A stretch of 40,206 nt of DNA, from positions 1 to 40,206 of the forward strand of contig NZ_ALWB01000017.1 in the NCBI RefSeq assembly GCF_000332215.1. Reading direction: 5' to 3'. Positions within the stretch are counted from its first letter, which is position 1; every line of letters begins with the position of its first letter. Shown here piece by piece: positions 3,365 through 31,568 of this stretch. This stretch comes from Pseudanabaena biceps PCC 7429 (lineage in GTDB: Bacteria; Cyanobacteriota; Cyanobacteriia; Pseudanabaenales; Pseudanabaenaceae). The notes beneath the pieces are model-generated. The model was not told where the DNA came from and made no database searches. It saw nothing but the letters and a program-made list of their open reading frames with translations. Position numbers and translations under genes: made by a program.

Positions 3365-3401
3365 GCTTATCCTGAGCATGATGCCAAGCTTGGGGTATTG
3401 C

Positions 3402-5996
3402 TTATATAACGATCGCTTGGATGCTATTTGCGATCGCCTGCTCGGCGGCAGAAGCCGTCAAGGGATGTGAAAATAAATAACCTTGCCCAAACTCACAACC
3501 TAATTTTTTTAAAATCTCGACCTGTTGTTCCGTTTCGACCCCTTCAGCGACGACACTCATATTTAAGGTATGGGCTAGCATGGTAATTGTCCGCACGATC
3601 TCAATATTTTCACCGCCATCACTCATCTGACTGACAAAAGCTCGATCGATTTTGAGAATATTAATGGGAAAGCGATGTAAATAGCTGAGGGAGGAATAAC
3701 CCTGACCGAAATCATCAATGCTCAGTTGGATATTTCTTGCCCGCAATTGCGCCAGTTTGGCGATCGTCTGTTCTCCCTGATCCATTAAGGTGCTTTCCGT
3801 AATTTCTAAACGGATCGAACTGCCATTGACCCCAGTTTCGGCAAGGATTGCATCGAGCTTATCTAAAAGATCTGGTTCACGAATTTGATGGCTAGCTAAA
3901 TTAATACTCATTTTCAAATTGGCAGCTTCGGGAAACTTCTGGAGCCAGTCCGTCAATTGTTGGCAGGCTTCCCTGAGAACCCAATCCCCAACTGCCACAA
4001 TTAACCCAGTATCCTCAGCCAGAGGAATGAATTCTATAGGCGAAATAAAGCCTCGTTTAGGATTCTTCCAACGGATTAGAGCTTCAAATCCAGCAAGTTG
4101 ATCGGTGGTTAGGGAAACGATGGGTTGATAATAAAGTTCAAATTCTCGATGTTCGAGAGCATAGTGAAGTTCGCTCTCTAATTGCGTTAATCGCAAGGTT
4201 TGTTCGTACATTTCTTGATCAAAGAGCGTATATCGTCCTTTGCCCAGAGATTTAGCCCGATACATGGCAATATCTGCATCCCTCAGGAGATCGATACAAT
4301 TATCATAATCTGGCGTACTAATGACAATGCCAATACTCGCACTAGGAAAAATCGCTTCGCCCCCGATGGTGATGGGAGAGAGAAACCGATGCAGAATACG
4401 ATCAGCAACGGTTAAGGCTTCACTCACATCTTGAATATCATCTACCAGAATTGTAAACTCATCGCCCCCCAGCCGAGCCACGGTATCAATCGAACGCAAG
4501 CAGTCTTGCAATAGTGCGGCGATCGCTTGTAAAAAGCGATCGCCCATATTATGCCCAAGACTATCATTAATCATTTTGAATCGATCTAGATCAATGAAAA
4601 AGATCGCAAATAGATAGTTGGAATTGCGCTTACTGTATTTGATCGCATGATCTACGCGATCCATAAATAGATTGCGGTTGGGTAAACCCGTTAAAGCATC
4701 ATGGGAGGCATCATGGGCAAGCAATTCGATCGAATCAGAAAGGGCCGAATTTAACTCGCGCAGTCTGGAAACATACATATAGCTCTGCATTACCATCATG
4801 GAGCCGATAAAGGTATATAGGGCAGGAGCAAGAGGTATCCACCAACCTCCTAAAAATAGTAAATAGCTGCCACCAATCAGAAAGCCCATGCCGAAAATTA
4901 CCGTCCCCGTTAGCAAGACTAATCTTTTGGTGGAGAAAATCCAAACGATCGCCGCGCCAGCGATCGACCAGATCGCAATCCACATTTCTTCGCCAATATC
5001 TGACCAAACATGAAATAGAGGTCGCTGATCGCTCGCTGCGCCCAAGATTAACTTAACAAGATTGGCTTGAAATTCTACCCCTGACATTTGCGCGGGTGAG
5101 GTAATAAAATTACTGCTATAGGGAGTGTAAAATACGTCATTGAGACTGGAAGCCTGCGCTCCAATCAAGACAATGCGATCGCGCATCAGATCGGGAGCGA
5201 TCCGATTTTCTAAAATATCTTCAAGGGAGACGGAGCGAAACTTTTGTGAGGAGCCGTGGTAATTCATCAAAACTTGATAGCCTCCCGCATCAATACGGAC
5301 ATAGCCGCCATCGGTATTTTCTAAGGGCTTAAAAACAGCTTCCCCAAGTTGTAAATATCCAGATGGTGAGGACTTCGGCTCTATGCCCTTATCTTTGAGG
5401 TATACAAGGGAAACTGCTAGCCCCAAACTAGGTAAACCTTCATTCCCTTTCGGCATTGGATATAACAAAGCCCGACGTAATCTACCATCGGGATCAACAA
5501 TGACATCATTTGCCGATACTTGACCTAGAGCCTTGAGTATAGGGGAAGGACTAATGGCAGTACTAAAGCGATCGTTAATGCTTTTTTCAATACCGATCAG
5601 ATTGGGAGTGGTTTTAAATATTTCCTCAAGTTCTTGGTAGCCATCTCCCACAGGAATATCTCGATAAAGATCTAAGCCAATTACTTTTGGCTTTTGTTCG
5701 CGGATTTTGCGTAAAATTTTAGCGAGGGTGCGATCGGAGGCTGGCCAACTCCCTAAGTAGCGAATATCCGATTCTTGTACGCCAACAATAACGATCCTCT
5801 CGTCTACGGGCTCCATAGGACGCAACTGTACGAATAGATCGAAAGCTGCCCATTCGCTAGGTTGCAACCACCCTAACCAACGCAATCCAAATACTAATAA
5901 GTACACACTTCCGCTAGACAGGAAAAATCCACCCCACTGTTTGAATCTAAGCGGTAAATTTTCCCAGTTTGCTTTTAGAGTTTTAATCGCGATCAT
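3402..5996 (-). CDS. CHASE2 sensor, diguanylate cyclase and c-di-GMP phosphodiesterase (GGDEF-EAL)
   Basis: An 864-aa membrane protein predicted to sense an extracytoplasmic signal and to make and/or break cyclic di-GMP. Order: one N-terminal membrane segment (about 20-42), a CHASE2 domain (about 45-320), a cluster of hydrophobic segments (about 330-420), GGDEF (motif RLGGDEF near 507-512) and EAL (FEALIRW near 636). The GGDEF active site is intact, and an inhibitory I-site RxxD (RSID) lies five residues before it. The EAL residues also look complete: LEITES, DDFGQGYSS, LKIDRAF and AEGVET. Both activities are therefore possible on sequence grounds. It is the second CHASE2 protein of the window; the other (22195) is a kinase. 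It ends convergent to the ABC ATPase gene with a 37-base gap. Confidence 0.95.
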   Translation of the reverse strand: MIAIKTLKANWENLPLRFKQWGGFFLSSGSVYLLVFGLRWLGWLQPSEWAAFDLFVQLRPMEPVDERIVIVGVQESDIRYLGSWPASDRTLAKILRKIREQKPKVIGLDLYRDIPVGDGYQELEEIFKTTPNLIGIEKSINDRFSTAISPSPILKALGQVSANDVIVDPDGRLRRALLYPMPKGNEGLPSLGLAVSLVYLKDKGIEPKSSPSGYLQLGEAVFKPLENTDGGYVRIDAGGYQVLMNYHGSSQKFRSVSLEDILENRIAPDLMRDRIVLIGAQASSLNDVFYTPYSSNFITSPAQMSGVEFQANLVKLILGAASDQRPLFHVWSDIGEEMWIAIWSIAGAAIVWIFSTKRLVLLTGTVIFGMGFLIGGSYLLFLGGWWIPLAPALYTFIGSMMVMQSYMYVSRLRELNSALSDSIELLAHDASHDALTGLPNRNLFMDRVDHAIKYSKRNSNYLFAIFFIDLDRFKMINDSLGHNMGDRFLQAIAALLQDCLRSIDTVARLGGDEFTILVDDIQDVSEALTVADRILHRFLSPITIGGEAIFPSASIGIVISTPDYDNCIDLLRDADIAMYRAKSLGKGRYTLFDQEMYEQTLRLTQLESELHYALEHREFELYYQPIVSLTTDQLAGFEALIRWKNPKRGFISPIEFIPLAEDTGLIVAVGDWVLREACQQLTDWLQKFPEAANLKMSINLASHQIREPDLLDKLDAILAETGVNGSSIRLEITESTLMDQGEQTIAKLAQLRARNIQLSIDDFGQGYSSLSYLHRFPINILKIDRAFVSQMSDGGENIEIVRTITMLAHTLNMSVVAEGVETEQQVEILKKLGCEFGQGYLFSHPLTASAAEQAIANSIQAIVI

Positions 5997-6208
5997 CTAA
6001 GAGAATTTAATGAGAGTAGTAAGCCTAACTTGTTGGAGTAAGTCCTGATAAAGAATCCTCAACTAAGGCGATCTCCACTATGTCTTGGCTCTGCAACTAA
6101 AGTTTCACAATCGTACCAAACTAATGCTTAGATGTATGCAAGCCCTTTGTCGTAATTATCTCAGCATAATTCCATCAGTTCTCGAAACTTTAATCCGACG
6201 GGATGAAC

Positions 6209-6265
6209 AAAGCCCAAAGAGATGAGTGGCGACGCGAAGCGTCGCCACTCATCTCTTTGGGCTTT
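6209..6265. repeat. Type B hairpin (25-bp perfect arms)
   Basis: Arms 6209-6233 and 6241-6265 around a 7-base loop. The right flank TTTATGTCCTAAGCAAACCTTACG is the complement of the left flank of the element at 84-150, so the two are inverted copies of one family with different stems. Confidence 0.8.
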
Positions 6266-6294
6266 ATGTCCTAAGCAAACCTTACGTTGCCTAT

Positions 6295-6405
6295 ATACCT
6301 GCCGCCAGTTTTGTTAGGACAAAATTAAAGCCCAAAAGAGGATTGCCGCGCTCCGCGCGGCAATCCTCTTTTGGACTTGTCCTGATACAGTTGACGGCAA
6401 CTATA
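6295..6405. repeat. Type B element with terminal inverted repeats
   Basis: Outer ends CTGCCGCCAGTTTTGTTAGGACAAA and TTGTCCTGATACAGTTGACGGCAAC are imperfect inverted repeats. Inside, arms 6332-6351 and 6355-6374 form a 20-bp perfect stem with loop TCC. Close relatives lie at 32610-32717 and 38746-38850. Confidence 0.8.
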
Positions 6406-6472
6406 GATGTGAAGATGTGAGGATGTGAAATTTAGCAATTCTATGGCTGTTACCAGCCCTAAGACAAAATCA

Positions 6473-6520
6473 AAAGCCAGAGTAAAGCACCATTGCGAAA
6501 TAGTGCTTTACTCTGGCTTT
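6473..6520. repeat. 18-bp perfect inverted repeat, 12-base loop
   Basis: Arms 6473-6490 and 6503-6520. It is unrelated in sequence to the neighbouring repeat families and not preceded by a gene on either strand, so a terminator role is unlikely. It lies 10 bases before a type C element. Confidence 0.65.
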
Positions 6521-6530
6521 GATGGATTGA

Positions 6531-6631
6531 TACCAATTCCCAAAAGTGTGGCTACACTTTTGGGAATTAAAACCCAAATCCAGTAAGGGTTTTAAAATTA
6601 CAAAATGGCGTAGCCATTTTGTAATTTGGTA
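6531..6631 (+). repeat. Type C 101-bp two-hairpin element, copy 2
   Basis: TACCAA...TTGGTA, with the same two hairpins and linker as 2203-2303 and only a few substitutions. One of these lies in the second hairpin: both arms changed together (GTGATT/AATCAC to GTAATT/AATTAC), so the stem is preserved. Confidence 0.85.
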
Positions 6632-6829
6632 TGATGTAATCGCGATATACATTGCGATCGCCGTAAGATCTAGCGATCTTTGGGTTATCGCAGATAAAAT
6701 GACGATCCATACAAATTTTATAAAGTTTACAAAGATCGAATCACCAAATGCTTAGAATAAAAAGTACGCCCCCCGCGTTTCTTTATTCTTCTTAAATTAG
6801 GAATTTAAATTAAGCATAATGGCGGTTGA

Positions 6830-7036
6830 TTAGTAATTACAGGATGGACTATATTCTATGAGTGGATGAAATCGAGATCCGCCGCCTTGAGTGCGTTGTG
6901 GTTGAGGACGATCCGTTGGAGTATACCCAGTTTGGTCATTTGCGAAAGTTATTTCTGGCTGACCAAGTGTAAGAATCATCCCCCCTATGCAGGCAATAGA
7001 AGCTGGCAGAATATTTCTATAATTTATTAGCAACAT
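6830..7036 (-). CDS. Small secreted protein, possibly a truncated DUF928-like remnant
   Basis: A 68-aa ORF with an ATG start and a hydrophobic N-terminal segment (about 8-32) that looks like a signal peptide. It is followed by a short mature part containing TGYTPTDRPQPQRTQGGGSR. That Pro/Arg/Gly-rich stretch resembles, from memory, the segment just after the signal peptide in cyanobacterial DUF928 proteins, whose folded part would follow but is missing here. It is therefore either a short secreted peptide or a decayed gene start. No operon partner: the neighbours on both sides are repeats and empty sequence. Weak call. Confidence 0.4.
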   Translation of the reverse strand: MLLINYRNILPASIACIGGMILTLGQPEITFANDQTGYTPTDRPQPQRTQGGGSRFHPLIEYSPSCNY

Positions 7037-7251
7037 AGCAATTCTGACTCTTAAGCTACAAAAAAGATTTTACCCTATCTATCGAAAAAATATTACTTTA
7101 TATAACTTTCTGATAACCTTTTATGGTGCAAAAAAGTTTTATAGGATGCTAAAAGGGTTTACATATTGAGATTGGTTTTATACTCATATAATTTCCATTT
7201 GATTTGCTCATTTATTGTCTGGAATCCTTTATAGGGTGGGAATGTGCTATT

Positions 7252-7279
7252 ACTTAGCATCCGATACTTAGCATCCGAT
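7252..7279. repeat. Exact 14-bp tandem duplication
   Basis: ACTTAGCATCCGAT twice, head to tail, in empty AT-rich sequence; probably slippage. Confidence 0.8.
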
Positions 7280-7454
7280 AGTATGGGGGAATACAAAGTA
7301 AAATCGACTACAAAATCAAAATGTCAGTGGCGATTAGTTTGTGTATGTAGGCGAATATTGTGAGAGATGTAGCTACGGGCACAAAATACTAGTCTCTACG
7401 AATAATTTGGAATAATTTGCCTTTTACCCTAATTGCTTGGGATGACATAGAGGT

Positions 7455-7571
7455 TAGGGACTTGCGAGAAAATAAGATGCCAATCCAGATTTACCAGAAT
7501 CAGTGGCGCGGCTCCGCCGCGCCACTGATTCTGGTTTTATATTTGGTACTTCATGAAATCGCAAGTCCCTT
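7455..7571. repeat. Type F MITE-like element with 12-bp ends
   Basis: Ends AGGGACTTGCGA (7456-7467) and TCGCAAGTCCCT (7559-7570) are a perfect 12-bp terminal inverted repeat. A 19-bp perfect stem (7494-7512 / 7516-7534, loop TCC) sits in the centre. It lies 30 bases past the stop codon of the TldE-like gene, on its downstream side. No transposase is encoded. Confidence 0.8.
7494..7534. repeat. Core hairpin of the type F element
   Basis: 19-bp perfect arms 7494-7512 and 7516-7534, loop TCC. The apex GTGGCGCGGC resembles the type B apices although the element's ends differ. Confidence 0.8.
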
Positions 7572-7601
7572 AATGTCAAGTTAACCTTTATGTAACGAAA
7601 G

Positions 7602-8984
7602 CTATAGAGTAAATGTAAAATCCTTTACAAGCATTCCTGGAACGAGAATACCTCCAAGCGATCGCTTTTCATAGGTACTTACGTTAGGAATAAATTCGCG
7701 AAAATCAGTTAATTCCTCTAGGTTTTTGCCCAAAAAATTATAGATGCTATCGTCAAAGCGTAGATTCTCAATGGGGGCGATCAACTCGCCTTGATCTACC
7801 CAAAAGCAGGCATAGCGCGTCATGCCTGTGATCCTGCCACCCGTGCGATCGCTCCAGTTTAGGTAATGGAGGTTTGACAAGTAAAGTCCAGTATCCAATT
7901 GTTTGAGAATATTGGCTGCTGCTAAGCTTCCTGCCGAAACTTCAGGAGATCGCATTGATTCACCCACGCTCGCACCATTGGCTTCTTTGTTATATTCCTT
8001 CGCACTGCGTGAACTAATTAAAGTATTGACGAGATTGCCATGGGCAATAACGGGCAAAAATTCAGGAGCGACTTCTCCGATACTGTTGAAGCGAGGTACA
8101 TTCCCGTAGGTGAAATTTTCACTAAGAGATAGTAACGGGGAGAGTTTTTTTTCTTGATTCTTTAATTTCAAAAGAGCGCTGCTACTCTGTTGCAAGCTCG
8201 ATTCGCCCACGCTGTTTGCAATAAAGCCTAATAGATCCGACGCTGCCGCAGGGGCAAAGTAGGTGTGATATTGTCCGCGCTCTAGAGTTTTGCTTGGTCT
8301 TTGTAGGGCTGCTAATTGTTCTTTGGAGCGGTTAATCTGGAAGTGATAATTCTCTGGTTGCCATTCTTTCCCAGCATAAATTCCCTTGACTGCTTTTTCG
8401 CCAGAATTCGTTTGGACGAACATGGAATAATCGACAAAAAAAGAATCCGTAGCAAACCAATGTCTCTGGCCTGCGGAGTTAGCATTGGCGCGGATGATTA
8501 AGCCAGATGCGTATAATCCCGCGAAATCTACGGTGCTATGTGCAGGAGTGATGACTGGTGTGAGAATTGCGGCGATCGCCTCTTCGGTGTCTAACAAACT
8601 GCCCTGATAAACTTCACGGCTTGAACCTTGGTTTTCGGGAATCACCAGATAGGGATTTTCGGGGATTTGGGCAACTTCTTGCCGCAAATAATCGAGACTG
8701 GCGATCGCGCAAGTCGTATCATGATCGAGATTGCCTGTAAATGGGAACTCAGCATAGGCTTCCCTCTGATTGCTGATTAACGAAATTGTGATATTTCCAT
8801 CGGCAACAAATCCTGATTGGCGAACCTTAGCCTTGTTAAATCTAGTAAATTGGCTGCGCTCGCTCTCTAGGCTAATAGTTAAATATTCACTACTATACAG
8901 ACTCGTAATTAGGCGATCGGTTAATCGATCGAAAACATCTTCTAGTGACTGTTCTTCCAGATGTCTGCCCATTAATTTGTCCAT
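7602..8984 (-). CDS. TldD/PmbA family protein, TldE/PmbA-like subunit
   Basis: A 460-aa protein of the TldD/TldE (PmbA) modulator-of-gyrase family. In other bacteria these act as a heterodimeric metalloprotease on unfolded or modified peptides. The family N-terminal pattern is visible in LESERSQFTRFNKAKVRQSG, and the C-terminal half ends in PGMLVKDFTF. I do not see the HExxxH zinc motif of the TldD subunit, so this looks like the non-catalytic TldE/PmbA partner. No tldD lies beside it in the window. Three tandem 14-mers lie just upstream of the start. The ATG was accepted as given; a second Met follows at residue 5. Confidence 0.85.
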   Translation of the reverse strand: MDKLMGRHLEEQSLEDVFDRLTDRLITSLYSSEYLTISLESERSQFTRFNKAKVRQSGFVADGNITISLISNQREAYAEFPFTGNLDHDTTCAIASLDYLRQEVAQIPENPYLVIPENQGSSREVYQGSLLDTEEAIAAILTPVITPAHSTVDFAGLYASGLIIRANANSAGQRHWFATDSFFVDYSMFVQTNSGEKAVKGIYAGKEWQPENYHFQINRSKEQLAALQRPSKTLERGQYHTYFAPAAASDLLGFIANSVGESSLQQSSSALLKLKNQEKKLSPLLSLSENFTYGNVPRFNSIGEVAPEFLPVIAHGNLVNTLISSRSAKEYNKEANGASVGESMRSPEVSAGSLAAANILKQLDTGLYLSNLHYLNWSDRTGGRITGMTRYACFWVDQGELIAPIENLRFDDSIYNFLGKNLEELTDFREFIPNVSTYEKRSLGGILVPGMLVKDFTFTL

Positions 8985-20327: not shown

Positions 20328-20676
20328 ATTCGTAATTATCCAGTTTCAAAAAGAATGAAGATTAGAATTAATCTCTGCTCAACAAATAGCATGTCATTCT
20401 TTACATTTTCAACAATTTTTTTAACTATTTCCTGAAAGAAATCAAGCAATTTCTTTCAGGAAATAGTTAATCATCAAATCTCTTATGGGAAATATTCGGT
20501 GCTAATCAGCCAAGGGAAGATAGACAAGTTTACGCATTTTTATCAATATAAAGCGTATATTTTAGTCCCCACTCTCAATTATCTAAACAGGTCTATATCG
20601 ATAAAGATTGCATTATCGCTAGTAAAAAGTTATGATTTAATCCAAATACAAATTTTTGATAAGAATTCAATTTTAT
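20328..20676. other. Divergent intergenic region with a strong hairpin
   Basis: Very AT-rich; must contain promoters for the secreted-protein gene (minus) and the STAND gene (plus). It holds the 22-bp perfect inverted repeat at 20421-20470. A 69-aa ORF overlapping the STAND start was rejected. Confidence 0.55.
20421..20470. repeat. 22-bp perfect inverted repeat, 6-base loop
   Basis: Arms 20421-20442 and 20449-20470, loop CAAGCA. Neither strand has a gene ending just before it, so a terminator role is unlikely. Its place in a divergent promoter region suggests a leader structure or an operator. Confidence 0.75.
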
Positions 20677-22032
20677 ATGGCTGGAAGGAATCAACTTCAA
20701 AAGCTTAGTGACTATCTTAAAGATCAACTCCAAAAAAAAGGGATAGATCGATTTGAGTTAGCTAGGCTATCAGGAGTTAGTGACTCGCAAGTATGGAGAT
20801 TACTAAATAAACTAGTGCGTAATCCTAAAGTGGAAACACTTGAAAAAATTGCCAACGCTCTTAAGATAGATTCTGGAACCCTAACGGAAATTGTTTATCC
20901 AAATTGGAAGAATAAATCCAATAGTTCTGTTGGACAACCTATTATCGATCATTTCCCTTCCGTGGAAAGCCTATTAGGTCGTCAGGAGGAATTACGCAGG
21001 CTTTCTGAATATAGCGATCGCAATCAACTAGTCTTTGTTGTAGGCTTTGTGGGCATAGGTAAAAGCTCTCTTATTAGATCATTTGTCCGTCACATATCTG
21101 AGAAGTTTGAAGACGTGCTTCTAAATCCCGAAATGTCGATCGCACAAATAATTAATCTTCTAAAAGAGGACAAAAGATACCTAGTCATATTAGACAATCT
21201 TGATACAGCAAGTGAAGAATATATTCCATTCTTAAATGAACTAGTCAAAGCTAAGTATAAGAGTTGCGTAATTGTCACTAGTCAAGAGCGCCCTAAAGAA
21301 TATCTTAATTGGGATCCTCGTCCTCGCCTTCTAGAATTACAGGGACTAGAGGAATCTGCGGCGATCGCTCTTTTACAGGGTGAAGGGCTATCTCCACAAA
21401 CAGATGAACGACTAGTAAAATTGCTGATTCAAAAATATGAAGGTAATCCTTGGGGATTAAAATTAGCATTACAGGATATTTTAGAATTATATGATGGAGA
21501 TCTAGCAAGCTATTTAGGAAAGAACTCTACATTTACTGGTAAATTTAGCCAAGAGATTAAGATCATTATCGAACGATTAACGCCTTTAGAATCAGAGGTT
21601 TTGTATTGGCTAGCATTACGAAAGGTAGCTATTCCCTATCCCGATATTCGGGATGCCTTTACCGAACGTAATACCATACTAATTGATGGTAATGCGGTGA
21701 GTGAAGCAGTTCAAGAGCTGAATCGCCGAGTACTTTTACGAAAAGATGGAAGTAAAATTAGTCTCAGGACTACAGTGCAAATATGCGCCGAAAAAAAGTT
21801 GCAAGAAGAACTTTTTCGTGAAATCAGGGCAATCGCTGCGAATAGTTTGAATCAAATACTTTGGTTATACTATCTCGATCTAACCAATGAACAAATTAAA
21901 TTACGAGCTCGTTTTTCTCGCTATGAAAATATTCTCATGCAGGCATTAAATCAACTGCAATCTAAGACCAAAGAGCAAAATATAGAGATCAACAATGCGA
22001 TCGCTAATCTACAATATTTATTAGGGAAGTAA
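20677..22032 (+). CDS. HTH-STAND NTPase (NB-ARC-like) regulator
   Basis: A 451-aa protein with an N-terminal XRE-type helix-turn-helix (about 24-72; RFELARLSGVSDSQVWRLLN, then VETLEKIANALKI) and a STAND/NB-ARC-like P-loop ATPase: Walker A GFVGIGKSS (123-131), Walker B YLVILDNLD (168-176), sensor-like VIVTSQERP (198-206), and GNPWGLKLA (256-264) in the place of the GLPL motif. A winged-helix-like tail follows. There are no WD40 or TPR sensor repeats at the C-terminus, so the ligand-sensing part is short or supplied by another protein. The ATG at 20677 is preferred to an upstream ATT/TTG-type start. It opens a + strand run with kinase-CHASE2, DUF928, TPR and CHAT genes, 162 bases before the kinase. 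A role as the run's regulator is inference. Confidence 0.85.
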   Translation: MAGRNQLQKLSDYLKDQLQKKGIDRFELARLSGVSDSQVWRLLNKLVRNPKVETLEKIANALKIDSGTLTEIVYPNWKNKSNSSVGQPIIDHFPSVESLLGRQEELRRLSEYSDRNQLVFVVGFVGIGKSSLIRSFVRHISEKFEDVLLNPEMSIAQIINLLKEDKRYLVILDNLDTASEEYIPFLNELVKAKYKSCVIVTSQERPKEYLNWDPRPRLLELQGLEESAAIALLQGEGLSPQTDERLVKLLIQKYEGNPWGLKLALQDILELYDGDLASYLGKNSTFTGKFSQEIKIIIERLTPLESEVLYWLALRKVAIPYPDIRDAFTERNTILIDGNAVSEAVQELNRRVLLRKDGSKISLRTTVQICAEKKLQEELFREIRAIAANSLNQILWLYYLDLTNEQIKLRARFSRYENILMQALNQLQSKTKEQNIEINNAIANLQYLLGK

Positions 22033-22063
22033 TAGTTTTTGTATTGCCCATGAATAATACTAC

Positions 22064-22156
22064 TCCCTTCTCACCAAAGAAATATACATCGAAAATCCAA
22101 AATTATACGTTGCGGCGCTTCGCGCCGCAACGTATAATCCCTCACTGGGAAGGGAA
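22064..22156. repeat. Hairpin repeat between the STAND and kinase genes
   Basis: Core stem 22102-22118 / 22122-22138, 17 bp perfect, loop TTC. The outer parts TCCCTTCTCAC and CACTGGGAAGGGA are imperfect inverted repeats, so this looks like another small MITE-like element. Confidence 0.7.
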
Positions 22157-22194
22157 TAAGCATAAACAATACTAAGTATTTTTACCCAAATAAT

Positions 22195-24381
22195 ATGATG
22201 GAAGATCTCTATGAAAAAAAGGTTCTCGAAAATCGCTATAAATTAATTAAGCAGTTGGGTAAGGGTCGTTTTGCTGAGGTATGGGAGGTTACTGATTCGC
22301 TAGCTAAGGGGAAAACAAAAGCAATCAAAGTCCTTAATAGCCAAGATACTGAACATATAAAACTATTTCGCAAAGAATTTTTGAATCTCTGGGATCTGAA
22401 TGATCTAAACTGCGATCTCATTGTTAGAGTAGAAGCCATTTATCCCAAAGAGATGCTAGAGGAAGATAGTTTTATCGATCACCATTTTTTTGTAATGGAA
22501 AAAGTGGAGGGAATTAGCTTAGAGAATCTGATTACCAAGTCATTTACAGAAATCGATCAAACTAATAATCGAAAACTATCTTTTGGGAAATCCCTTTGGC
22601 AATTTCTATTTTGTCGCTATCCACCTTTGCGATCGCAGATCACTTATAGGGAAGTTGCCGATTGGCTAGAACAACTTACCAAAGCATTGCAACATATACA
22701 TAAACAAAAAATTATTCATTGTGATATTAAACCAGCAAATATCATGATTACTCCCAATGGGAATATTAAGCTAATTGACTTCGGAGCATCAATGCTCACT
22801 GACAGTAGATATCCTGTTGAATTTGATACTCAGTCCCTAACTCGGCAATATACCTTTGGTTATGTTGCTCCCGAACAACAAAACGGTCAGGCTCTATTTG
22901 CTTCCGATTTCTATAGCCTAGGTCAAACTATACTATCAACAATAACAGGACAAATTCCTCCCCAGCTTGCTAACAATTGGCGATCGCAATTTCCAACCGA
23001 ACTTACCGATTTTCTCCTCAAAGCAACTAATCCCGATCATACCAAACGTCATCTCAATGCTAGGAACTTACACAAAGAGGCTAAATTATTAGCGCAATCA
23101 CTACGGCAAAAATATGCGCAGTGGAATGGTTTGACCCAAGTTACGGCTGTCCTAATTATTGCGGCGATCGCCACATTTGGGACATTATTTGTGCGATCAA
23201 CAGGCTCATTACAAAATCTAGAACTGAAAGCCTATGATCAAATGATTCAGAGGCGACCAGATTTAGGAGCAGATCCTCGCATATTAATAATAGATGTCCC
23301 CCGTGATATTAAAGCAATCTCCGATCAAGACTTAGTGGATATATTATCAAAGCTCGTGGATGAGCATCCAAGGGTAATTGGCATTCCATTAATTCGTGAT
23401 GAAGAGAGAAAGTCTAACCCTGAGAGCCTCGCGAAGCTAAAAAAAATTTATCAACAACATGCGAACATATTTGGCTTATGCGAACATGCTGACAGCGATG
23501 GCAAAAAATTAAGTTATCCTTTTTCGCCAAAACCAAATACAGATCTAGGTTTTGGGAATACTCCCCTAGATCAGGATGATACCCTCCGTCGTCATTTGTT
23601 AATTTATCGCAATTCACCAATGGACGAATGTAAAGCAACCGCATCATTTAGTCTATTAATTGCGCATCATTATTTGCGAAGCGATTTACAAAGCGACTAT
23701 AAATCCATAAATCCGATGACGGATAAAAACTATACTTTAGGAAAAGCAACATTTCAAAGCTTGGAAATAGGGCAGGGTGCTTATCAGGATAGCAAGATGG
23801 AAGAATTTAACAACCTATTCCAGATTATGCTCGATTATCGCTCACCCCATATCGCTCAAACTATTTCTATAAAACAGTTTCTATCTGCAAAAAAAACCTC
23901 TAACTTAATAAAAGATCGCATTATTTTAATTGGTCGAGCTAGTATTGATCGCGGTGCAATCAATATTACACCTTACGGCAATCTAGTAGAGGTTTCCAAC
24001 GTGGAATTAACGGCACATAGGATCAGCCAATTGATTAGTATAGCTAAAGGAGAACGTCCAATCTTAAGTCCGGCCAGCTTTATAGTAGATTTCCTATGGA
24101 CGCTCGGTGTTGCTTGTATTAGTGGATTTCTTGGATGGCGCATCAATTCAAGAATGGGACAAGTTATTACGATTTCAATCTTAATAATTTCTTTATCCAA
24201 TATCTGTTCTTTTATTCTCATAACACAAGGGATATGGTTAGGATATGTCCCAATTATTATTGTAGCGATCATTGCAAATTTTGGTGGATTTATCTATACT
24301 CGATATCAGTATAAATTTACAAATCTATGGGGAATATGTGAGCACTTTAAATCATCTAATAACTCATCTAATAAATTCTAA
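22195..24381 (+). CDS. Membrane Ser/Thr protein kinase with CHASE2 sensor
   Basis: A 728-aa protein. The N-terminal Hanks-type kinase has its Gly loop GKGRFAEVW (22-30), Lys45 in KAIKV, the catalytic loop HCDIKPANI (175-183, Asp177), DFG (195-197) and APEQ (225-228). Cys precedes the catalytic Asp, making it a non-RD kinase. A membrane segment (about 314-334) leads to a CHASE2 domain (about 335-620) that should face the periplasm, and then three closely spaced membrane segments (about 628-705). This is a kinase-in, sensor-out layout: an extracytoplasmic signal controls phosphorylation in the cytoplasm. All key kinase residues are present. It overlaps the next gene, so it is probably co-translated with the DUF928-type gene. 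Confidence 0.95.
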   Translation: MMEDLYEKKVLENRYKLIKQLGKGRFAEVWEVTDSLAKGKTKAIKVLNSQDTEHIKLFRKEFLNLWDLNDLNCDLIVRVEAIYPKEMLEEDSFIDHHFFVMEKVEGISLENLITKSFTEIDQTNNRKLSFGKSLWQFLFCRYPPLRSQITYREVADWLEQLTKALQHIHKQKIIHCDIKPANIMITPNGNIKLIDFGASMLTDSRYPVEFDTQSLTRQYTFGYVAPEQQNGQALFASDFYSLGQTILSTITGQIPPQLANNWRSQFPTELTDFLLKATNPDHTKRHLNARNLHKEAKLLAQSLRQKYAQWNGLTQVTAVLIIAAIATFGTLFVRSTGSLQNLELKAYDQMIQRRPDLGADPRILIIDVPRDIKAISDQDLVDILSKLVDEHPRVIGIPLIRDEERKSNPESLAKLKKIYQQHANIFGLCEHADSDGKKLSYPFSPKPNTDLGFGNTPLDQDDTLRRHLLIYRNSPMDECKATASFSLLIAHHYLRSDLQSDYKSINPMTDKNYTLGKATFQSLEIGQGAYQDSKMEEFNNLFQIMLDYRSPHIAQTISIKQFLSAKKTSNLIKDRIILIGRASIDRGAINITPYGNLVEVSNVELTAHRISQLISIAKGERPILSPASFIVDFLWTLGVACISGFLGWRINSRMGQVITISILIISLSNICSFILITQGIWLGYVPIIIVAIIANFGGFIYTRYQYKFTNLWGICEHFKSSNNSSNKF

Positions 24382-25120
24382 AATCAAATCTACGTTCACT
24401 TTTAGTACTTTGATGAGCATCTTTTTTTATGCCTTATTTGCAGTGCTTGAATCTAGTAATGCTCAACCAATTTCTCCATCAATTATTATTGCTCAACAGT
24501 CTACAAATTCAACGACCTCAACAACCTCAACGGGAAAAACTCATCCAACTGGCGATCGCGGAGATTGCCCTATTTTGGTTGCTGGCGTACCACAATTGAC
24601 CGCCTTAACTGCTAAAAACGGACAAACAGCTACTCTCTCTCAAAGTCCAGTTTTTCGATTTTATACTCCCTATGCTAAAGGGAACTACCAGTTCCGATTG
24701 AGCAAGTCTCGCAAATCCAATACCCTTATCTACAGTCAAAATATAGCTAGAACCGATCAAGCAGGAATTTTCACGGTCTCTTTACCTGTAATCGATGAGA
24801 TCAAACCTCGTGTCAACTATTTTTGGGAATTAGAATATTTCTGTTCCAATAAGCCCAATCCTGATAGTCGTATCGTTAATGGTTGGGTTTATCAGGATCG
24901 ACTCACTCCAGAACAGATGCTAGAGCTAAATAATGCTACTACCACAAGCGATCGCATTATTTTTTATCAAAAATACGGCATCTGGTTAGAATTACTAGAT
25001 GAAATTGCCAAATCTTTACCTCAAAACCAAAGCCTTTGGCAGCAAGTCCTTACCAATGAAGGTTTAGGAAGCATCATCAATCAGCCAATTTTTAAGCCCC
25101 AATCACTTGTTAAGCCATAA
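24338..25120 (+). CDS. DUF928-type secreted protein
   Basis: I start at GTG 24338, which gives a basic n-region (SKIKS), a hydrophobic core (about 20-38) and a plausible cleavage after SSNAQ. It overlaps the kinase gene by 44 bases and has a GGGGA-like ribosome site before it. The ATG at 24413 is an alternative, but leaves no positive charge before the hydrophobic core. The mature part has a Thr/Ser-rich linker, then GDRGDCPILVAG, SPVFRFYTPY, YQFRLSK, PRVNYFWELEYFC and NGWVYQ. These are features of DUF928 proteins, a cyanobacterial family of unknown function with a beta-sandwich-like pattern and two conserved cysteines. The gene sits between kinase-CHASE2 and TPR/CHAT, an arrangement I recall from other cyanobacteria. 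Confidence 0.82.
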   Translation: MSTLNHLITHLINSKIKSTFTFSTLMSIFFYALFAVLESSNAQPISPSIIIAQQSTNSTTSTTSTGKTHPTGDRGDCPILVAGVPQLTALTAKNGQTATLSQSPVFRFYTPYAKGNYQFRLSKSRKSNTLIYSQNIARTDQAGIFTVSLPVIDEIKPRVNYFWELEYFCSNKPNPDSRIVNGWVYQDRLTPEQMLELNNATTTSDRIIFYQKYGIWLELLDEIAKSLPQNQSLWQQVLTNEGLGSIINQPIFKPQSLVKP

Positions 25121-25123
25121 ACC

Positions 25124-26383
25124 ATGAAATCTTTGCATATTCTAGTTGCTCTAGCTTTAACCTCTATATATCTTTTCGGAAAGGTGCCAAAAGTGATCGC
25201 CAAATCAAATCCTCAGGCAAATCACTCATCTAGTTCTCAGGCAAAGTTGTTGATCACACAAGCTAACTTCGCATACCAGAGCGAGCTTAATAGTCTAGTA
25301 CAAGCAGGGGACGAGAAATTAAACCAGAAAAAATTCCAAGAAGCAATTTCTATCTACCAGAAAGCTCTACAACTAGCAAATCAAAACCAAGATCAGGAAT
25401 CTCAAGTGGCTGTACTTGTCGGTATTGGTAGAATTTACGACCAAAGTGGGAAATATCTAGATGCAGAACGCTCATTTAATTCAGGACTACAAATACTCTC
25501 CCAACTTGCTGGAGAGCCGGCATCTGTAGAAAAAAGAGTAATGCAATCTCGTTTACGAGTTCTTTCGCTAACAGGATCAGGGATTGTATATACCAATCTA
25601 GGAAATTACGATAAAGCTTCTAAACAGTTAGAATTAGCAGTAGCTATTTCTAATGAGGGGATTAACAGCCCTTCTTTACTTGTTCAGTTTGAACCTAGGT
25701 TTAAACTAGCAGAACTCTATGAAAAACAAAACAAATATAGTGAGGCAATTGGTGTATTGCAATATTGTCGAATTATTGCCACTCAAATAGGTGATCGACA
25801 GGCAGAAGCAATGACTCTAACGGCGATCGGCAACAACCTTACTAAACTGGGAAACCTTAGTGTCGCAAAACAATATTACGATCAGGCGAAAACATTAGGA
25901 AATTTTCCTCAAGAGCCAGAAATCGCCAACGCACCCAGTAGATTAGAGGCAGTATCAGGAGATTTAGTAGGGCTTACTAACTTACTTGATAGATTTGCGC
26001 CAATCTTGCAAAAAGCGAGTGTTAGTATCAGAAAGATAGAACGAATCCTATCAATCGATCCTAGCTTTGCTATAGTCGGTAAAGCTGCTAACAACCTAGA
26101 TCAAGTAATTCAGAACTTGGCTAATGCTACACCAAAGCTCAGAAGTGGAGACCTTATAGGTGCTTATCCATCGTTGCAAAAAATAAATGGTGGTATGTCA
26201 GAAATGCTCCAAAATCTTAAGGAACTCCAAGGATTAATGGAAGATGTACAGCAAAACCCTAAGAAATTCCCTGTCTTGCAACGTTTAAGCCCCCAAGATT
26301 TGATGGATTTGAACAACATCAACGTAGAAATGCGAGATATTACTAATTCCATTGGTGGAAAGTCTAAATCAAAAAAAAACTAG
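25124..26383 (+). CDS. Secreted TPR protein; N-terminal half of a split TPR-CHAT gene
   Basis: A 419-aa ORF with a signal peptide (MKSLHILVALALTSIYLFG, cleavage probably near residue 28). TPR units run through about 55-265 (AGDEKLNQKKFQEAISIYQK, VGIGRIYDQSGKYLDAERSF, LAELYEKQNKYSEAIGVLQY, TAIGNNLTKLGNLSVAKQYY), then a helical region (about 280-410). It starts three bases after the DUF928 stop, so it is in the same operon. The ORF ends KSKSKKN-stop exactly at a run of nine A (26371-26379). One extra A, or a -1 slip, would continue it into the CHAT frame as ...KSKKKLASIEA..., giving a 954-aa TPR-CHAT protein. Alone it lacks any catalytic domain. Confidence 0.85.
   Translation: MKSLHILVALALTSIYLFGKVPKVIAKSNPQANHSSSSQAKLLITQANFAYQSELNSLVQAGDEKLNQKKFQEAISIYQKALQLANQNQDQESQVAVLVGIGRIYDQSGKYLDAERSFNSGLQILSQLAGEPASVEKRVMQSRLRVLSLTGSGIVYTNLGNYDKASKQLELAVAISNEGINSPSLLVQFEPRFKLAELYEKQNKYSEAIGVLQYCRIIATQIGDRQAEAMTLTAIGNNLTKLGNLSVAKQYYDQAKTLGNFPQEPEIANAPSRLEAVSGDLVGLTNLLDRFAPILQKASVSIRKIERILSIDPSFAIVGKAANNLDQVIQNLANATPKLRSGDLIGAYPSLQKINGGMSEMLQNLKELQGLMEDVQQNPKKFPVLQRLSPQDLMDLNNINVEMRDITNSIGGKSKSKKN
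26371..26379 (+). other. A9 run: slippage or -1 frameshift site joining the TPR and CHAT frames
   Basis: The 0-frame codons are TCA AAA AAA AAC TAG, and both A-AAA-AAA and A-AAA-AAC fit the X-XXY-YYZ slippery heptamer. The -1 frame is open from 26368 through the whole CHAT ORF and has no ATG, GTG or TTG before 26581. A run of nine A is also a known type of site for RNA polymerase slippage and for replication or sequencing errors. Confidence 0.7.
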
Positions 26384-26580
26384 CTAGTATCGAAGCCATT
26401 CCAAATTTAAATTCACTCTTTCATAAATTCAAGCAGTCCAAGCCTCGATCTATTGGTGAAGAGTTAAACGATCTCATCAGAGAGTCATCATTTCGTTTTG
26501 GGAGATTCTCTGTAGATGGTGCAAAGACCCAAGTCGAAGTTGCTAGGAGTTCGGGAGATCCTTTAGCCTATGGTCGTGCT

Positions 26581-27987
26581 TTGCATAATTTAGGGCTTTC
26601 CTACAAATACAGTTCAGAATATGTTCAAGCTGAAAATACCTTGATAGAGGCGATCGCTGTTTGGGAAAAACTGAGAGTAGGACTAGAGGATCGGGAATCC
26701 TATCGCATTTCACTATTTGAAACTCAAAATATCACCTATCAAGCTTTGCAACAAGTAAGAGTTGCGATACAGAAGTATCCTGAAGCGCTAGAAGCGGCAG
26801 AACAGGGACGCGCAAGGGCTTTTGTTGCTTTATTGTCAAGTAAATTGTCCAGAGACTCCCTCCAAATCAACCCAAAACTTAGAGAGCCATCGGTTAAAGT
26901 TCAAGATCTCCAAAATATCGCTCGCAACCAAAATATTACGATTGTTTCCTATTCCTTTATCAAACAAGAAACCATTGGCTCCAATCAGCTTGCCCTTAGC
27001 AGTGGCGATATCTATGTTTGGGTGATCTCGCCCAAAGGGCTAATCACTTTCCGCAAACTCGATGTGTATAGATGGGAACTTGAGCATAAAAAACTGCTCT
27101 TATCCATAATTGAGGAGCTGCAAAGGAATCTCTCAAAACCAAATGGTCGCATACCAAACCCTCCACCAACCTTATCTCCTGAGCAATTGGATAATATACC
27201 AGATGAATTAAAGTCACTCTACGATTTGCTCATCAAACCAATTGAAGAATTTTTACCATCCGATCCCAATGCTCAGGTTGTTTTTGTTCCCCATAACGCG
27301 CTTTTCTTGATTCCATTTGCCGCTCTTAGAGATCAATCTGGTCGATACTTAATCGAGAAGCATACTATTTCCTACGCACCATCAATCCAAATTTTAGAAT
27401 ATACCGAGCGGCTGCGCCTTGCTCCTAAAGGTAAAAACTTTTTGATTGTGGGGAACCCCACTGAAGATTTAAGCCAAGCAGAGCAGGAAGCAAGAGACAT
27501 TTCTAACCTACAAAAAACTGAAGCAATTATTGGTAAGGAGGCGACCAAACAAGCAATCCTTGCTAAAATAGCCGATGCCCAAATTATCCACCTTGCAGCC
27601 CATGGAACCTTTGATTCTGAGCATGGACTAGATAGCGCGATCGCTTTAGCTAACAACAAACTCACCGCCACCGATATATTACAACTGAACCTCAAAGCAA
27701 AATCAGTTGTACTAAGCGCTTGTAATACAGCTAAGGGCAAAGTTACAAGTGACGGTGTGATTGGTTTGTCGAGAGCCTTTATCTTAGCTGGGACTCCCAG
27801 TATTGTCGTGTCGCTATGGTCTGTGCCCGATGCGGAAACGTCGCAACTAATGGTGAACTTTTATCAAAATATGCAAAGTAGTAGCGATCGCGCTAAGGCT
27901 TTGCGAAATGCCATGCTAGCGACAATGAAATCATATCCCCATCCACGCAATTGGGCAGCATTTACCCTTATTGGCTCTAGAGATTAG
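26581..27987 (+). CDS. CHAT-domain protease-like ORF; C-terminal half of the split TPR-CHAT gene
   Basis: The frame is open from 26368, but the first possible start is the TTG at 26581, inside a TPR (ALHNLGLSYKYSSEYVQAENTLIEAI). The ORF therefore looks like the continuation of the upstream gene, not a separate one. The last TPRs are followed by a CHAT domain (about 220-465) of the caspase/separase-like cysteine protease fold: VVFVPHNALFLIPFAAL, the catalytic His in IIHLAAHGTF (codon 27601-27603) and the catalytic Cys in VVLSACNTAKGK (codon 27721-27723). Both residues of the dyad are intact, so there is no sign of long decay. With the upstream signal peptide the product would be exported; read alone it would stay in the cytoplasm. 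No terminator is evident in the 270 bases that follow. Confidence 0.82.
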   Translation: MHNLGLSYKYSSEYVQAENTLIEAIAVWEKLRVGLEDRESYRISLFETQNITYQALQQVRVAIQKYPEALEAAEQGRARAFVALLSSKLSRDSLQINPKLREPSVKVQDLQNIARNQNITIVSYSFIKQETIGSNQLALSSGDIYVWVISPKGLITFRKLDVYRWELEHKKLLLSIIEELQRNLSKPNGRIPNPPPTLSPEQLDNIPDELKSLYDLLIKPIEEFLPSDPNAQVVFVPHNALFLIPFAALRDQSGRYLIEKHTISYAPSIQILEYTERLRLAPKGKNFLIVGNPTEDLSQAEQEARDISNLQKTEAIIGKEATKQAILAKIADAQIIHLAAHGTFDSEHGLDSAIALANNKLTATDILQLNLKAKSVVLSACNTAKGKVTSDGVIGLSRAFILAGTPSIVVSLWSVPDAETSQLMVNFYQNMQSSSDRAKALRNAMLATMKSYPHPRNWAAFTLIGSRD

Positions 27988-28257
27988 AATTGACGTATTT
28001 CGGGAAACCGTCTAGATCGGACTTAGTGCTAGTAACCCATACACCGTAAACTAGCTTAGTAGGCTGATAATAAATTCAATAGTAGGATTTAATTAGCTAA
28101 GTGCAATTAGATATAAAACCCAAAGCCTTCGTGTACGCTGCGCTTGCACCACAGATTTTGAATTTGTTTTTTAATTATGCCTAGCTACTTAAATGGCACT
28201 TACTATCTGCAACTATTGGACTGATTATAGATTGAGGCATTGCGCGAGGTTATTAGT
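27988..28257. other. Spacer between the CHAT ORF and ftsY with a degenerate type A element
   Basis: At about 28091-28191 the right end TTAATTATGCCTAGCTACTTAA matches the type A terminus well. The left end (GCTAAGTGCAATTAGATATAAAACCC) and the core (no longer a good palindrome) have decayed. The ftsY promoter should lie in the remainder. Confidence 0.6.
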
Positions 28258-29892
28258 ATGGTGTTTAACTGGTTTCGGCGAAAGTTTGATGACGACAAAG
28301 ATGCAAATAGTCAACCTGTAGAGCCAGTCCAAACTGAAGCAAAAGCACCAGAATCGGAAGCTGTCGATTCTGGCTCTACCGTATCGCCTGCCTCTCAAGA
28401 TTTATTGAACTGGGCAAAAGCAGCCTATGCAAATGTCCAGCAGCAAGCAGATGTAATCGAAGCACAGCCCGCTCCAGAAATTGCTGAATCTGCTGAATCT
28501 GAAGAGCGATCTGTTGTGCCAGAAGATCCTAACAAGTTAGAAATTACAGAGCCACCGATCGCCGAACCCGCAATTGCAACGGTAGAAATTGCCCCACAAG
28601 AAGTTGCGCCAATTTCAGCAACCGAGCCTGAACTCATTCCCACAGAGTCACCAGAAAATTCTGTAGTTATATCTCAAGAACTCGCGACAGCGGAATCTGC
28701 ACCGATCGCCACTGACATAGAAAAGATAGAAAAGATAGAAACGATCGCTGAAACCGCACCTGTCCCCTTTTGGCTGCAATCCGAAAGCGATCGCCTAGCT
28801 CGCATTGCAGCCCTTGAAGCCACGGCCATTATCGAACCAGAGCCAGAAGTTAAACCCGCACCTCGCCGCCGAGCCACCATCAAGTTTGATGATGACTTTA
28901 TTTGGTCGGCGGAAGTACTTGCCTCTCAGGGTCGTCGTCCTGAAGAAATTTCCGTCGAGGAAATCACATGGCTCAATCGACTGCGCCAAGGTTTAGACAA
29001 AACTCGCCTCTCTCTAGTCAATCAACTCAAGGCGATCGTCGGACAAGGACCGCTTAGTGCCGATTCCGTTGATGACATTGAGGCTTTGTTATTACAGGCT
29101 GATGTAGGCGTGAAGGCAACGGATCTAATTATTGCCAAGTTACAGGAAAAACTGCGTAAGGAAGTTTTGCCTCCTGAAGAAGCGATCGCCTATCTCAAAC
29201 AAATTTTGCGCGAAATGCTGGATGTCAACAATAAAGGAGAATCTCCCCTACCCATGCTGATCCCAGAAAAAAGCCAATTAAATATCTGGTTGATCACGGG
29301 TGTGAATGGGGCAGGTAAGACCACAACTATCGGTAAACTTTCGCACCTAAGCGTAAAGTCGGGTTACAAAACCCTAATTGCCGCAGCCGACACCTTCCGA
29401 GCCGCCGCCGTTGAACAGGTCAAGAGTTGGGGACAAAGATCGAATGTAGATGTGATCTGCAATCCCGCCCAAAATGCCGATCCTGCCGCTGTTGTCTTTG
29501 ATGCCATCAGTGCCGCCCAAGCCAGAGGTACGGAGTTATTACTCGTCGATACCGCAGGTAGACTGCAAAACAAAAAAAATCTGATGGAGGAACTCAGCAA
29601 GATTCGCCGTATCGTTGATAAAAAGTCTGCCGAGGCAAAGATCGAATCCCTGCTAGTACTCGACTCAACCCTAGGACAAAATGGACTCAAGCAAGCAGAA
29701 GTATTTGCCCAATCCGCAGGAATTACAGGTGTGATCCTTACTAAACTCGATGGCACGGCAAAGGGTGGCGTAGCGATCGCGGTAGTACAGCAACTAGGGC
29801 TACCCATCAGATTTATCGGCGCTGGCGAAGGGATCGAAGATCTGCGCCCATTCTCCAGCTATGAATTTGTAGAAGCCCTATTGAGTAACTAA
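28258..29892 (+). CDS. ftsY: Signal recognition particle receptor
   Basis: SRP-dependent targeting GTPase at the membrane, 544 aa. An acidic, Ala/Glu/Pro-rich N-terminal A domain (about 1-200) begins with the amphipathic MVFNWFRRKFDDD. The NG domain follows: P-loop GVNGAGKTTT, DTFRAAAVEQ, DTAGRLQNKKNLMEEL and the guanine-specificity motif TKLDGTAKGG. I start at ATG 28258 because a GAGG ribosome site sits eight bases upstream; an upstream TTG adds six residues. The TAA stop (29890-29892) is at the same time the first bases of the terminal repeat of a type A element. Confidence 0.96.
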   Translation: MVFNWFRRKFDDDKDANSQPVEPVQTEAKAPESEAVDSGSTVSPASQDLLNWAKAAYANVQQQADVIEAQPAPEIAESAESEERSVVPEDPNKLEITEPPIAEPAIATVEIAPQEVAPISATEPELIPTESPENSVVISQELATAESAPIATDIEKIEKIETIAETAPVPFWLQSESDRLARIAALEATAIIEPEPEVKPAPRRRATIKFDDDFIWSAEVLASQGRRPEEISVEEITWLNRLRQGLDKTRLSLVNQLKAIVGQGPLSADSVDDIEALLLQADVGVKATDLIIAKLQEKLRKEVLPPEEAIAYLKQILREMLDVNNKGESPLPMLIPEKSQLNIWLITGVNGAGKTTTIGKLSHLSVKSGYKTLIAAADTFRAAAVEQVKSWGQRSNVDVICNPAQNADPAAVVFDAISAAQARGTELLLVDTAGRLQNKKNLMEELSKIRRIVDKKSAEAKIESLLVLDSTLGQNGLKQAEVFAQSAGITGVILTKLDGTAKGGVAIAVVQQLGLPIRFIGAGEGIEDLRPFSSYEFVEALLSN

Positions 29893-29990
29893 GTAGCTGG
29901 GCATAATTAATTACAAACTCAAACCGTAAAGTTGCGCCCCTACGGGGCGCAACTTTACGGTTTTGGTAATTTATTTTGCACAAGCACTTA
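29890..29990. repeat. Type A element beginning at the ftsY stop codon
   Basis: TAAGTAGCTGGGCATAATTAATTAC starts on the ftsY TAA. Core stem 29921-29940 / 29944-29963, 20 bp perfect, loop TAC. The right end is a diverged TTGCACAAGCACTTA. The core is shared with 13047-13120. Confidence 0.8.
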
Positions 29991-30161
29991 GTAATTTGCG
30001 TAATTTGCGTACGGAATTGACCAAATCGATATCGTGAGATAAGTCTTCTGAAATAACTTTTAGCAAATTACTGAAATCGCCTGTTAATTTTTGTCCAACT
30101 AAGGCTACACTATTGGACTAAATTAGCTTTCATACTAACCACCTAGCGTTGCAGCATTGGT

Positions 30162-31568
30162 ATGTCCCTATCATTGCCACCTAGAAATAGATCCCTCCCA
30201 CCACAGCCAGATCCAGACAATGCCTCTGTAATGGTGATGAAGGATCTCAAAGATCTGCTCAGACGCATGAGTCAAGATCAAAACAAAATCCATGAGCTAC
30301 TTAGCTTTTTGGGTTACGCTCTCCGCAGCTTTAGTAACCTCAACCAATTTTTAGAATTAATTCCCCTAATTGCCAGTCGTGTAACTGACTCCGATGGTGG
30401 CGCACTAATTTTATTTAAAGCAAGCGGACAAATCCGTCTAGAGTCACTGCATTGCCCCGAACGTAATCAAGGTGGCATGAAAGCCCAGCAGGTCAGAACG
30501 GCGATCGAGCGAGCCATTCAGCAGGTTTTAACTGGCAGCCCAACTGCTCTCGATGAGATGGTCAGTCGGTATCTAGGCGCTGATGTCCATTTGTTTGGCA
30601 CATCCGTATTAGTCAAAAATTCTGTGCGTGGTCGCCTCTATATATTTAGTCGCAAGCCTGATTATGTATGGACAGACAATAAGCGCACTTTGATGCGCCT
30701 CGTTGCCGATCAAACTTCGGTAGGGCTAGAAAATCACGAACTCACAACCGAATTAATCAAAAAAGAGCGCCAAGATCGCGAGATGGAGATCGGCGCAGAA
30801 ATCCAACGCCAACTCTTGCCACGCAACTGTCCCAAGATTCAAGGGATTGAGATCTCGGCACGTTGCTCGACGGCTAGTCGAGTTGGCGGTGACTACTATG
30901 ACTTTATCCCCATTCAAAAAGGCGATCGCTGGAGCTTTGTCGTTGGCGATGTCATGGGCAAGGGCGTACCCGCAGGCTTAATCATGACCATGACTAGAGG
31001 AATGTTGCGTGCTGAGGTATTAAATAACCATTCCCCCAGCAAAATTCTGGAACACCTCAATGAAGTGATGTATGAAGATTTGGAAAAATCCCATCGCTTC
31101 GTAACCATGTTTTATTCGGAGTACGATCCCGAAACCCAGATTCTTTCCTTTAGTAATGCTGCCCATACCCCTGCCTTGCACTGGCGCGCCAAGACTCGAT
31201 CTGTCCATGCCCTCGACACGATGGGCGCTTTGATTGGTTTGGAAGCTGGTTCCAAATATGAAGAGCGTAGTACCAATTTAAATTCGGGAGATGTAGTTAT
31301 TTACTATACGGATGGGTTTACGGAGGCTGCAAGCCCTGAAGGCGATCGCTTTGATGAAGAAAATCTTCGTAAAGCCTTAGACTGGGCTTGCCAAAATTGT
31401 TTTCCGCTTTCCGATGATGTAACCCGCCCCCAAATGATTCTTGACTACATCTTCCAAGAAGTACAAAACTTTATTGGAGAAGGGCATACTCATACTGATG
31501 ACATGACTCTGGTAGTTTTGCACATAAACGACAAAACCTTAGAGCAAAGCTCTAGTAAATTACTCTAG
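30162..31568 (+). CDS. GAF-domain PP2C (SpoIIE/RsbU-type) phosphatase
   Basis: A 468-aa cytoplasmic protein. A short helical lead (about 25-50) is followed by a GAF-like domain (about 55-200; LIPLIASRVTDSDGGALILF, LRLVADQTSVGLENHELT), a coiled linker (KKERQDREMEIGAEIQRQLLPR) and a SpoIIE PP2C domain with Asp metal ligands in GGDYYDFI, VVGDVMGKGVPAG, YYTDGFTEA and HTDDMTLVVL. It would dephosphorylate a STAS-type antagonist in a partner-switching pathway. It is the second such phosphatase of the window, with a GAF instead of a receiver as input. A small membrane protein gene follows after 51 bases and may be co-transcribed. Confidence 0.92.
   Translation: MSLSLPPRNRSLPPQPDPDNASVMVMKDLKDLLRRMSQDQNKIHELLSFLGYALRSFSNLNQFLELIPLIASRVTDSDGGALILFKASGQIRLESLHCPERNQGGMKAQQVRTAIERAIQQVLTGSPTALDEMVSRYLGADVHLFGTSVLVKNSVRGRLYIFSRKPDYVWTDNKRTLMRLVADQTSVGLENHELTTELIKKERQDREMEIGAEIQRQLLPRNCPKIQGIEISARCSTASRVGGDYYDFIPIQKGDRWSFVVGDVMGKGVPAGLIMTMTRGMLRAEVLNNHSPSKILEHLNEVMYEDLEKSHRFVTMFYSEYDPETQILSFSNAAHTPALHWRAKTRSVHALDTMGALIGLEAGSKYEERSTNLNSGDVVIYYTDGFTEAASPEGDRFDEENLRKALDWACQNCFPLSDDVTRPQMILDYIFQEVQNFIGEGHTHTDDMTLVVLHINDKTLEQSSSKLL

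Follow-up and report, generated by a model that had tools for sequence, protein, structure and literature searches.

The stretch of DNA analysed here, a window of 40,206 nucleotides from Pseudanabaena biceps PCC 7429 (contig NZ_ALWB01000017.1), carries a gene for a TPR-CHAT protease that is divided between two reading frames at a run of nine adenines (A9). Comparison with related genomes indicates that this run is very probably a programmed recoding site in an intact gene, whichever machine does the slipping. The upstream open reading frame (25124..26383, + strand) encodes a TPR region followed by a helical bundle, 419 residues in all, which is the product expected when the message is not recoded. 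It reads TCA AAA AAA AAC TAG at its end, with the TAG at 26381-26383 lying one base 3' of the run (26371..26379, + strand), which is exactly nine A long. The CHAT half continues in the -1 frame, which is open for 539 codons (26368..27987, + strand) and would be reached by recoding. In that frame the earliest ATG, GTG or TTG is the TTG at 26581, 202 bases beyond the run, and no start codon lies between the opening of the frame and the run. One extra A would join the halves into a protein of 954 residues, a length that follows by arithmetic. An initial annotation, made from the letters of the window, had described the ending of the TPR frame, the opening of the -1 frame, the lack of an early start codon and the length of the joined protein in the same terms, and all of these readings held. 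It had also called the joined protein secreted, a putative assignment that goes by the appearance of the N-terminus.

The -1 frame encodes an intact CHAT domain, as that annotation had also stated. Its match (E 5.5e-72 to 1.7e-71; 241.5 bits to PF12770, for which the cut-off is 24) is the best of the genome's nine CHAT matches; for the remaining eight, the surrounding open frames measure 663 to 1373 codons. The His codon at 27601..27603 and the Cys codon at 27721..27723 (both + strand) fall in invariant columns, H412 and C452, within aligned HG and SAC motifs that are present in 20 of 20 relatives; these two residues correspond to the dyad that is catalytic in the CHAT family. The upstream half matches TPR_12 of Pfam (E 1.8e-20). 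An AlphaFold2 model of this half, built from a four-row alignment (mean pLDDT 75.5) and nearly all helical, places TPRs at approximately residues 49-257 and a long helical bundle at 271-417, and Foldseek retrieved ordinary TPR proteins for it, LGN and kinesin light chain among them. Since the break falls in a low-confidence tail of the model directly after the bundle (residues 413-419), the short product might fold as a complete unit by itself. The initial annotation had the TPR pattern running directly across the break. A TPR-like stretch does occur in the CHAT half (residues 52-86, a weak match to PINS TPRs, E 0.003; Pfam listed no TPR in this half at E<=0.001), but the break itself is not in mid-TPR and lies behind the helical bundle. 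A structure model of the CHAT half had a mean pLDDT of 53 and was set aside.

A DNA search over 26 genomes of the genus identified three further genomes with long matches to the split gene (65-74% identity in aligned pieces): Pseudanabaena cinerea FACHB-1277, Pseudanabaena sp. UBA1465 and the metagenome-assembled genome (MAG) Oscillatoriales cyanobacterium CG2_30_44_21. The homologues thus form a small sample, four genomes from one genus. When a profile of the TPR half was run against 388 genomes of the class, only the same four genomes and one tandem paralogue were returned at E<=1e-25. Viral contigs yielded no homologue of the TPR half, and a wider search of genome contigs gave no close match beyond the same three relatives, together with three weak matches in distant bacteria. 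In all four genomes found to have the gene, A9 is present at the identical site, and neither its phase (NNA AAA AAA AAY) nor the -1 offset varies. In each the run begins at the third codon position, while the flanking bases differ and the spacer from run to stop measures 1 base in the window, 31 in the MAG, 22 in UBA1465 and 1 in P. cinerea. The loci of two of the three relatives (9.2 and 13.2 kb) contain no other run of A or T that reaches eight bases, and that of UBA1465 (13.2 kb) contains three more. With the encoded residues and each gene's codon usage taken as given, the four genes would all show A9 with a probability of about 0.002 if they are independent. Because all four genomes retain the A9 out of frame, slippage at the run to give two products is much the best reading, as the initial annotation had proposed; that annotation had also raised the conservation of the run out of frame in close relatives, which is what the other three genomes display, in the same phase.

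Relatives that encode the protein in one frame were also found within the genus. P. cinerea carries a tandem pair of TPR-CHAT genes at 3009-8816 of its locus, of which one is split at A9 and the other, upstream, is a single frame of 967 residues whose longest A run is 5. A CHAT-half profile (E<=1e-60) identified 15 further in-genus relatives, all single-frame, with a longest A run of 6 or 7. In a tree of 20 relatives, for which the tool gave a long-branch warning, the P. cinerea in-frame copy joined the four split genes in one group (100/100), within which its neighbor was the split copy from the same genome (96/96). Because the in-frame copy falls within the split clade, the A9 site appears to be one that can be lost, and the simplest history suggested by this tree would be one gain and one loss. 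The CHAT halves of the P. cinerea pair cluster, whereas the TPR profile gives the in-frame copy a far lower score for its TPR half; gene conversion or an exchange of domains may lie behind this pattern. Among the CHAT matches listed for the class, five with short frames were examined for further splits: four of these loci were cut by or near contig ends, and the fifth had an ordinary stop in frame, next to masked bases.

Both halves of the split gene are under purifying selection, with the His and Cys kept. In pairwise comparisons among the four homologues, pS was 0.74-0.78 and pN 0.23-0.42 for the TPR half, and pS was 0.68-0.73 and pN 0.16-0.28 for the CHAT half, these values being such that synonymous sites are near saturation between the four genomes. 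The pN of the CHAT half was lower than or equal to that of the TPR half in 6 of 6 pairs. Constraint is also seen in the stretch from the run to the first start codon of the window's CHAT frame, where, over 49-65 codons, each of the 6 pairs had a pN smaller than its pS. Because the MAG and UBA1465 each have a start codon within this stretch, the pair that bears out the argument most cleanly is that of the window with P. cinerea (pN 0.40, pS 0.59). These data bear on the possibility that the locus consists of two genes and that the CHAT half is translated alone, through reinitiation or from a promoter of its own. Start-like codons do occur 64 to 247 bases beyond the run, but they lie at non-matching places within the conserved protein (+202, +76, +64 and +247 from the run in the four homologues), so that the CHAT half has, by this comparison, no conserved start of its own. 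The constrained post-run stretch and the non-matching start positions together make a separate CHAT gene unlikely. The absence of a start between the frame opening and the run, the single frame kept in 16 in-genus relatives, and the lack of any + strand promoter-like match at 24993-27960 (a consensus scan for the sigma-70 type only) also count against two genes, an arrangement that we regard as improbable.

Two further explanations were considered. The genome of the window is a draft assembly of 464 contigs, a circumstance that could favor a sequencing or assembly error, or else the run could mark a recent null mutation. The initial annotation had offered this as its alternative, and it is contradicted by the agreement of four separate assemblies and by the purifying selection on both halves, the CHAT half being strongly constrained. 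A9 runs elsewhere in this genome (5.47 Mb) point the same way: 22 are listed, and the run studied here is the only one that splits a gene by the rule of our census, whereas 12 of the other 21 lie within through-running open frames and 9 in neither class. As the sole gene-splitter among these 22, and with no A run of nine or more found in 170 kb of loci picked independently of A runs, the A9 split appears to be more than chance. An error or a null mutation is therefore scarcely credible. Slightly less remote, and still very improbable, is phase variation, also suggested initially, in which a change in the length of the run in the DNA would turn the protease on or off between cells. Poly-A and poly-T runs are indeed known to change length by replication slippage (PMC3711429), but the run has the same length and is out of frame in 4 of 4 genomes that are near saturation at synonymous sites, and none of the four is in the ON state. 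Programmed recoding is the reading that we retain.

Extending the census to all four genomes gave 116 listed A9 runs (22, 32, 19 and 43), or 112 distinct ones once repeated flanks were removed. Seven of the distinct runs split a gene, all in -1, namely four in TPR-CHAT and three in larC; 35 lay in through-running open frames, for which the rule asks that a frame on either strand stay open over the run for 450 bases or more and which are not proven genes, and 70 fell in neither class. The larC copy of UBA1465 was counted as split, though its second frame opens far upstream. With the splits confined to TPR-CHAT and larC, the four assemblies do not break genes at A9 at random. In P. cinerea, five of ten A9 loci examined, including two that sit at contig ends, have identical flanks and probably represent a repeated mobile element.

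The larC family (PF01969, Ni_insertion) was matched in 25 of the 26 genomes of the genus, the window's genome being the only one without a match. Every one of these 25 has larC split in -1, at an A9 in 21 and an A10 in 4, and the run always begins at codon position 1. All three of the TPR-CHAT-split genomes that carry larC have it split at A9; in UBA1465 its first half gave two matches, and this copy may be broken elsewhere too. On these counts the A run of larC is a genus-wide recoding site. Recoding of larC is reportedly known in Lactobacillus, and the DUF111 cluster of GeneTack is presumably the same family.

Two machines could produce the shift. Transcriptional slippage, in which RNA polymerase adds an A on the run, is our preferred mechanism, at somewhat better than an even chance, and we lean toward it over a ribosomal -1 shift on the features of the run. 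The site has the form by which such slippage is recognized, a homopolymer of at least nine at which a one-base insertion joins the frames (A9, -1 offset). A run of 9-10 A is kept at 29 of 29 sites, TPR-CHAT and larC taken together, whereas a slippery heptamer needs seven; the phase of the run differs between the two families; and no downstream structure was found beyond that of shuffled sequences (z -1.12 to +1.61 in five windows of each of the four sequences, pseudoknot-free folding), nor an inverted repeat near the window's A9. It is the retention of at least nine A where seven suffice, the differing phases and the lack of downstream structure that favor the polymerase. Programmed ribosomal frameshifting, by a slip back on A_AAA_AAA (or A_AAA_AAC/T), would give the same two proteins and is a serious though less probable competitor. 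The heptamer A_AAA_AAA is in phase in all four homologues. Moreover, the shift is in the -1 direction only, in 4 of 4 TPR-CHAT and 25 of 25 larC genes, though these are just two gene families; according to the rule given in PMC3711429, both directions among orthologues indicate slippage and a single direction points to ribosomal frameshifting, a rule that serves as an indicator and does not define slippage. Three of the four homologues also have a weak Shine-Dalgarno-like match 6-22 bases upstream of the run, a possible stimulator (-4.8 to -5.3 kcal/mol, equalled by 9.7 to 10.3% of windows in the gene; 38.5% for the fourth). However, 0 of 25 larC sites have such a match in the best 5% of windows, no 3' structure is found in any of the four sequences, and runs longer than a heptamer have been retained. 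A downstream structure and an upstream Shine-Dalgarno-like element commonly accompany -1 ribosomal frameshifting but are not required for it. Nine as a run length raises frameshifting in E. coli, with the slipping machine left unstated (PMC3711429).

If polymerase slippage operates here, plain reading of the nine-A message would give the 419-residue TPR and helical protein only. On a share of transcripts the polymerase would slip on the run and add an extra A, which would bring the -1 frame into register and yield the 954-residue TPR-CHAT protease, and the run would fix the ratio of TPR-only protein to protease. The short form might then matter as a partner, a decoy or a brake of the protease. 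Three points here are inferences, namely the occurrence of recoding, its attribution to the polymerase in preference to the ribosome, and the importance of the short form; the last is suggested by analogy with tssM1 of Citrobacter, after which the TPR-only form may be functional.

The genomic context of the split gene includes a gene directly upstream with a DUF928 domain (24272..25120, + strand; E 1.4e-31; start codon uncertain), whose stop is separated by 3 bases from the TPR start. A Ser/Thr kinase-CHASE2 gene (22195..24381, + strand) lies upstream in the same array, and a gene for an HTH and STAND-like ATPase protein (20656..22032, + strand) is a probable neighbor, a similar gene being located upstream in the MAG and UBA1465. 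These two genomes have the same gene order as the window, with a Uma2 gene added, whereas in P. cinerea the order differs, with a response-regulator gene and the in-frame TPR-CHAT copy upstream. A DUF928 match lies within approximately 1 kb or less on the same contig in at least 11 of the 13 single-frame relatives of 808-893 codons. Any involvement in stress or in signalling at the envelope would be a guess; our literature search returned nothing linking CHAT with CHASE2 or with DUF928. We tentatively offer, as a proposal that is more apt to fail than to hold in full, that the nine-A run is an expression device shared within the genus, by which polymerase slippage would set the ratio and the TPR-only form would restrain or aim the scarcer protease beside a kinase-CHASE2 sensor. 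Were this so, the dose of a protease would be set by the fidelity of transcription, perhaps with a ratio that depends on conditions. The locus would offer a simple system for asking whether the TPR-only form is a partner or a brake of a CHAT protease; the TPR-CHAT site is an unusually clean comparative case, and larC supplies a second one in the genus for testing the mechanism. Automatic annotation tends to call such genes two genes or broken ones, and others may consequently be overlooked.

The architecture resembles that of the Craspase protein TPR-CHAT/Csx29 (PDB 8d9g, 7x8a, 7y9x), which likewise combines TPRs with a CHAT protease; the CHAT half matches these structures at E about 2e-6 (8d9g, 7x8a) and 0.011 (7y9x). 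Craspase differs in that its TPR-CHAT is a single protein in type III-E CRISPR, whereas the gene described here lies in a kinase-CHASE2/DUF928 array, and no adjacent gRAMP/Cas7-11 or other Cas family was found when five neighboring ORFs in 20656-31568 were scanned. Programmed recoding in bacteria is known from transposases, dnaX, prfB, secretion-system genes and some enzymes (PMC5009743, PMC3711429). The main text of PMC3711429 makes no mention of CHAT, TPR, tetratricopeptide or caspase, and our literature search found no paper on a recoded CHAT protease; recoding at A runs is thus already known, and a caspase-like CHAT protease as its user appears, to us, to be new. Two GeneTack clusters likewise frameshift at A-rich sites: in E. 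coli the DUF111 cluster gave at most 39%, and magnesium chelatase cassettes with 11, 9 and 7 A gave 63, 40 and 10% (PMC3711429). These two clusters differ from the present case in being metabolic genes; the 9-A magnesium chelatase cassette, A_AAA_AAA_AA (-1, 40%), agrees with it in both length and phase (PMC3711429). Runs of nine A or T are established sites of slippage, and dnaX of Thermus uses a run of 9 to make a short and a long protein in this way (PMC5009743). In Citrobacter rodentium, slippage at an A11 in tssM1 gives approximately 20-25% frameshifting, and both forms and their ratio are needed (PMC4256274). The likeness to dnaX and tssM1 lies in a poly-A or poly-T run that yields a short and a long protein; the genes are different ones, and mRNA heterogeneity was measured there, whereas here it is predicted from sequence alone. 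The tssM1 study describes sites of this kind as uncommon across tssM genes (PMC4256274), whereas here the run is present in 4 of the 4 orthologues found.
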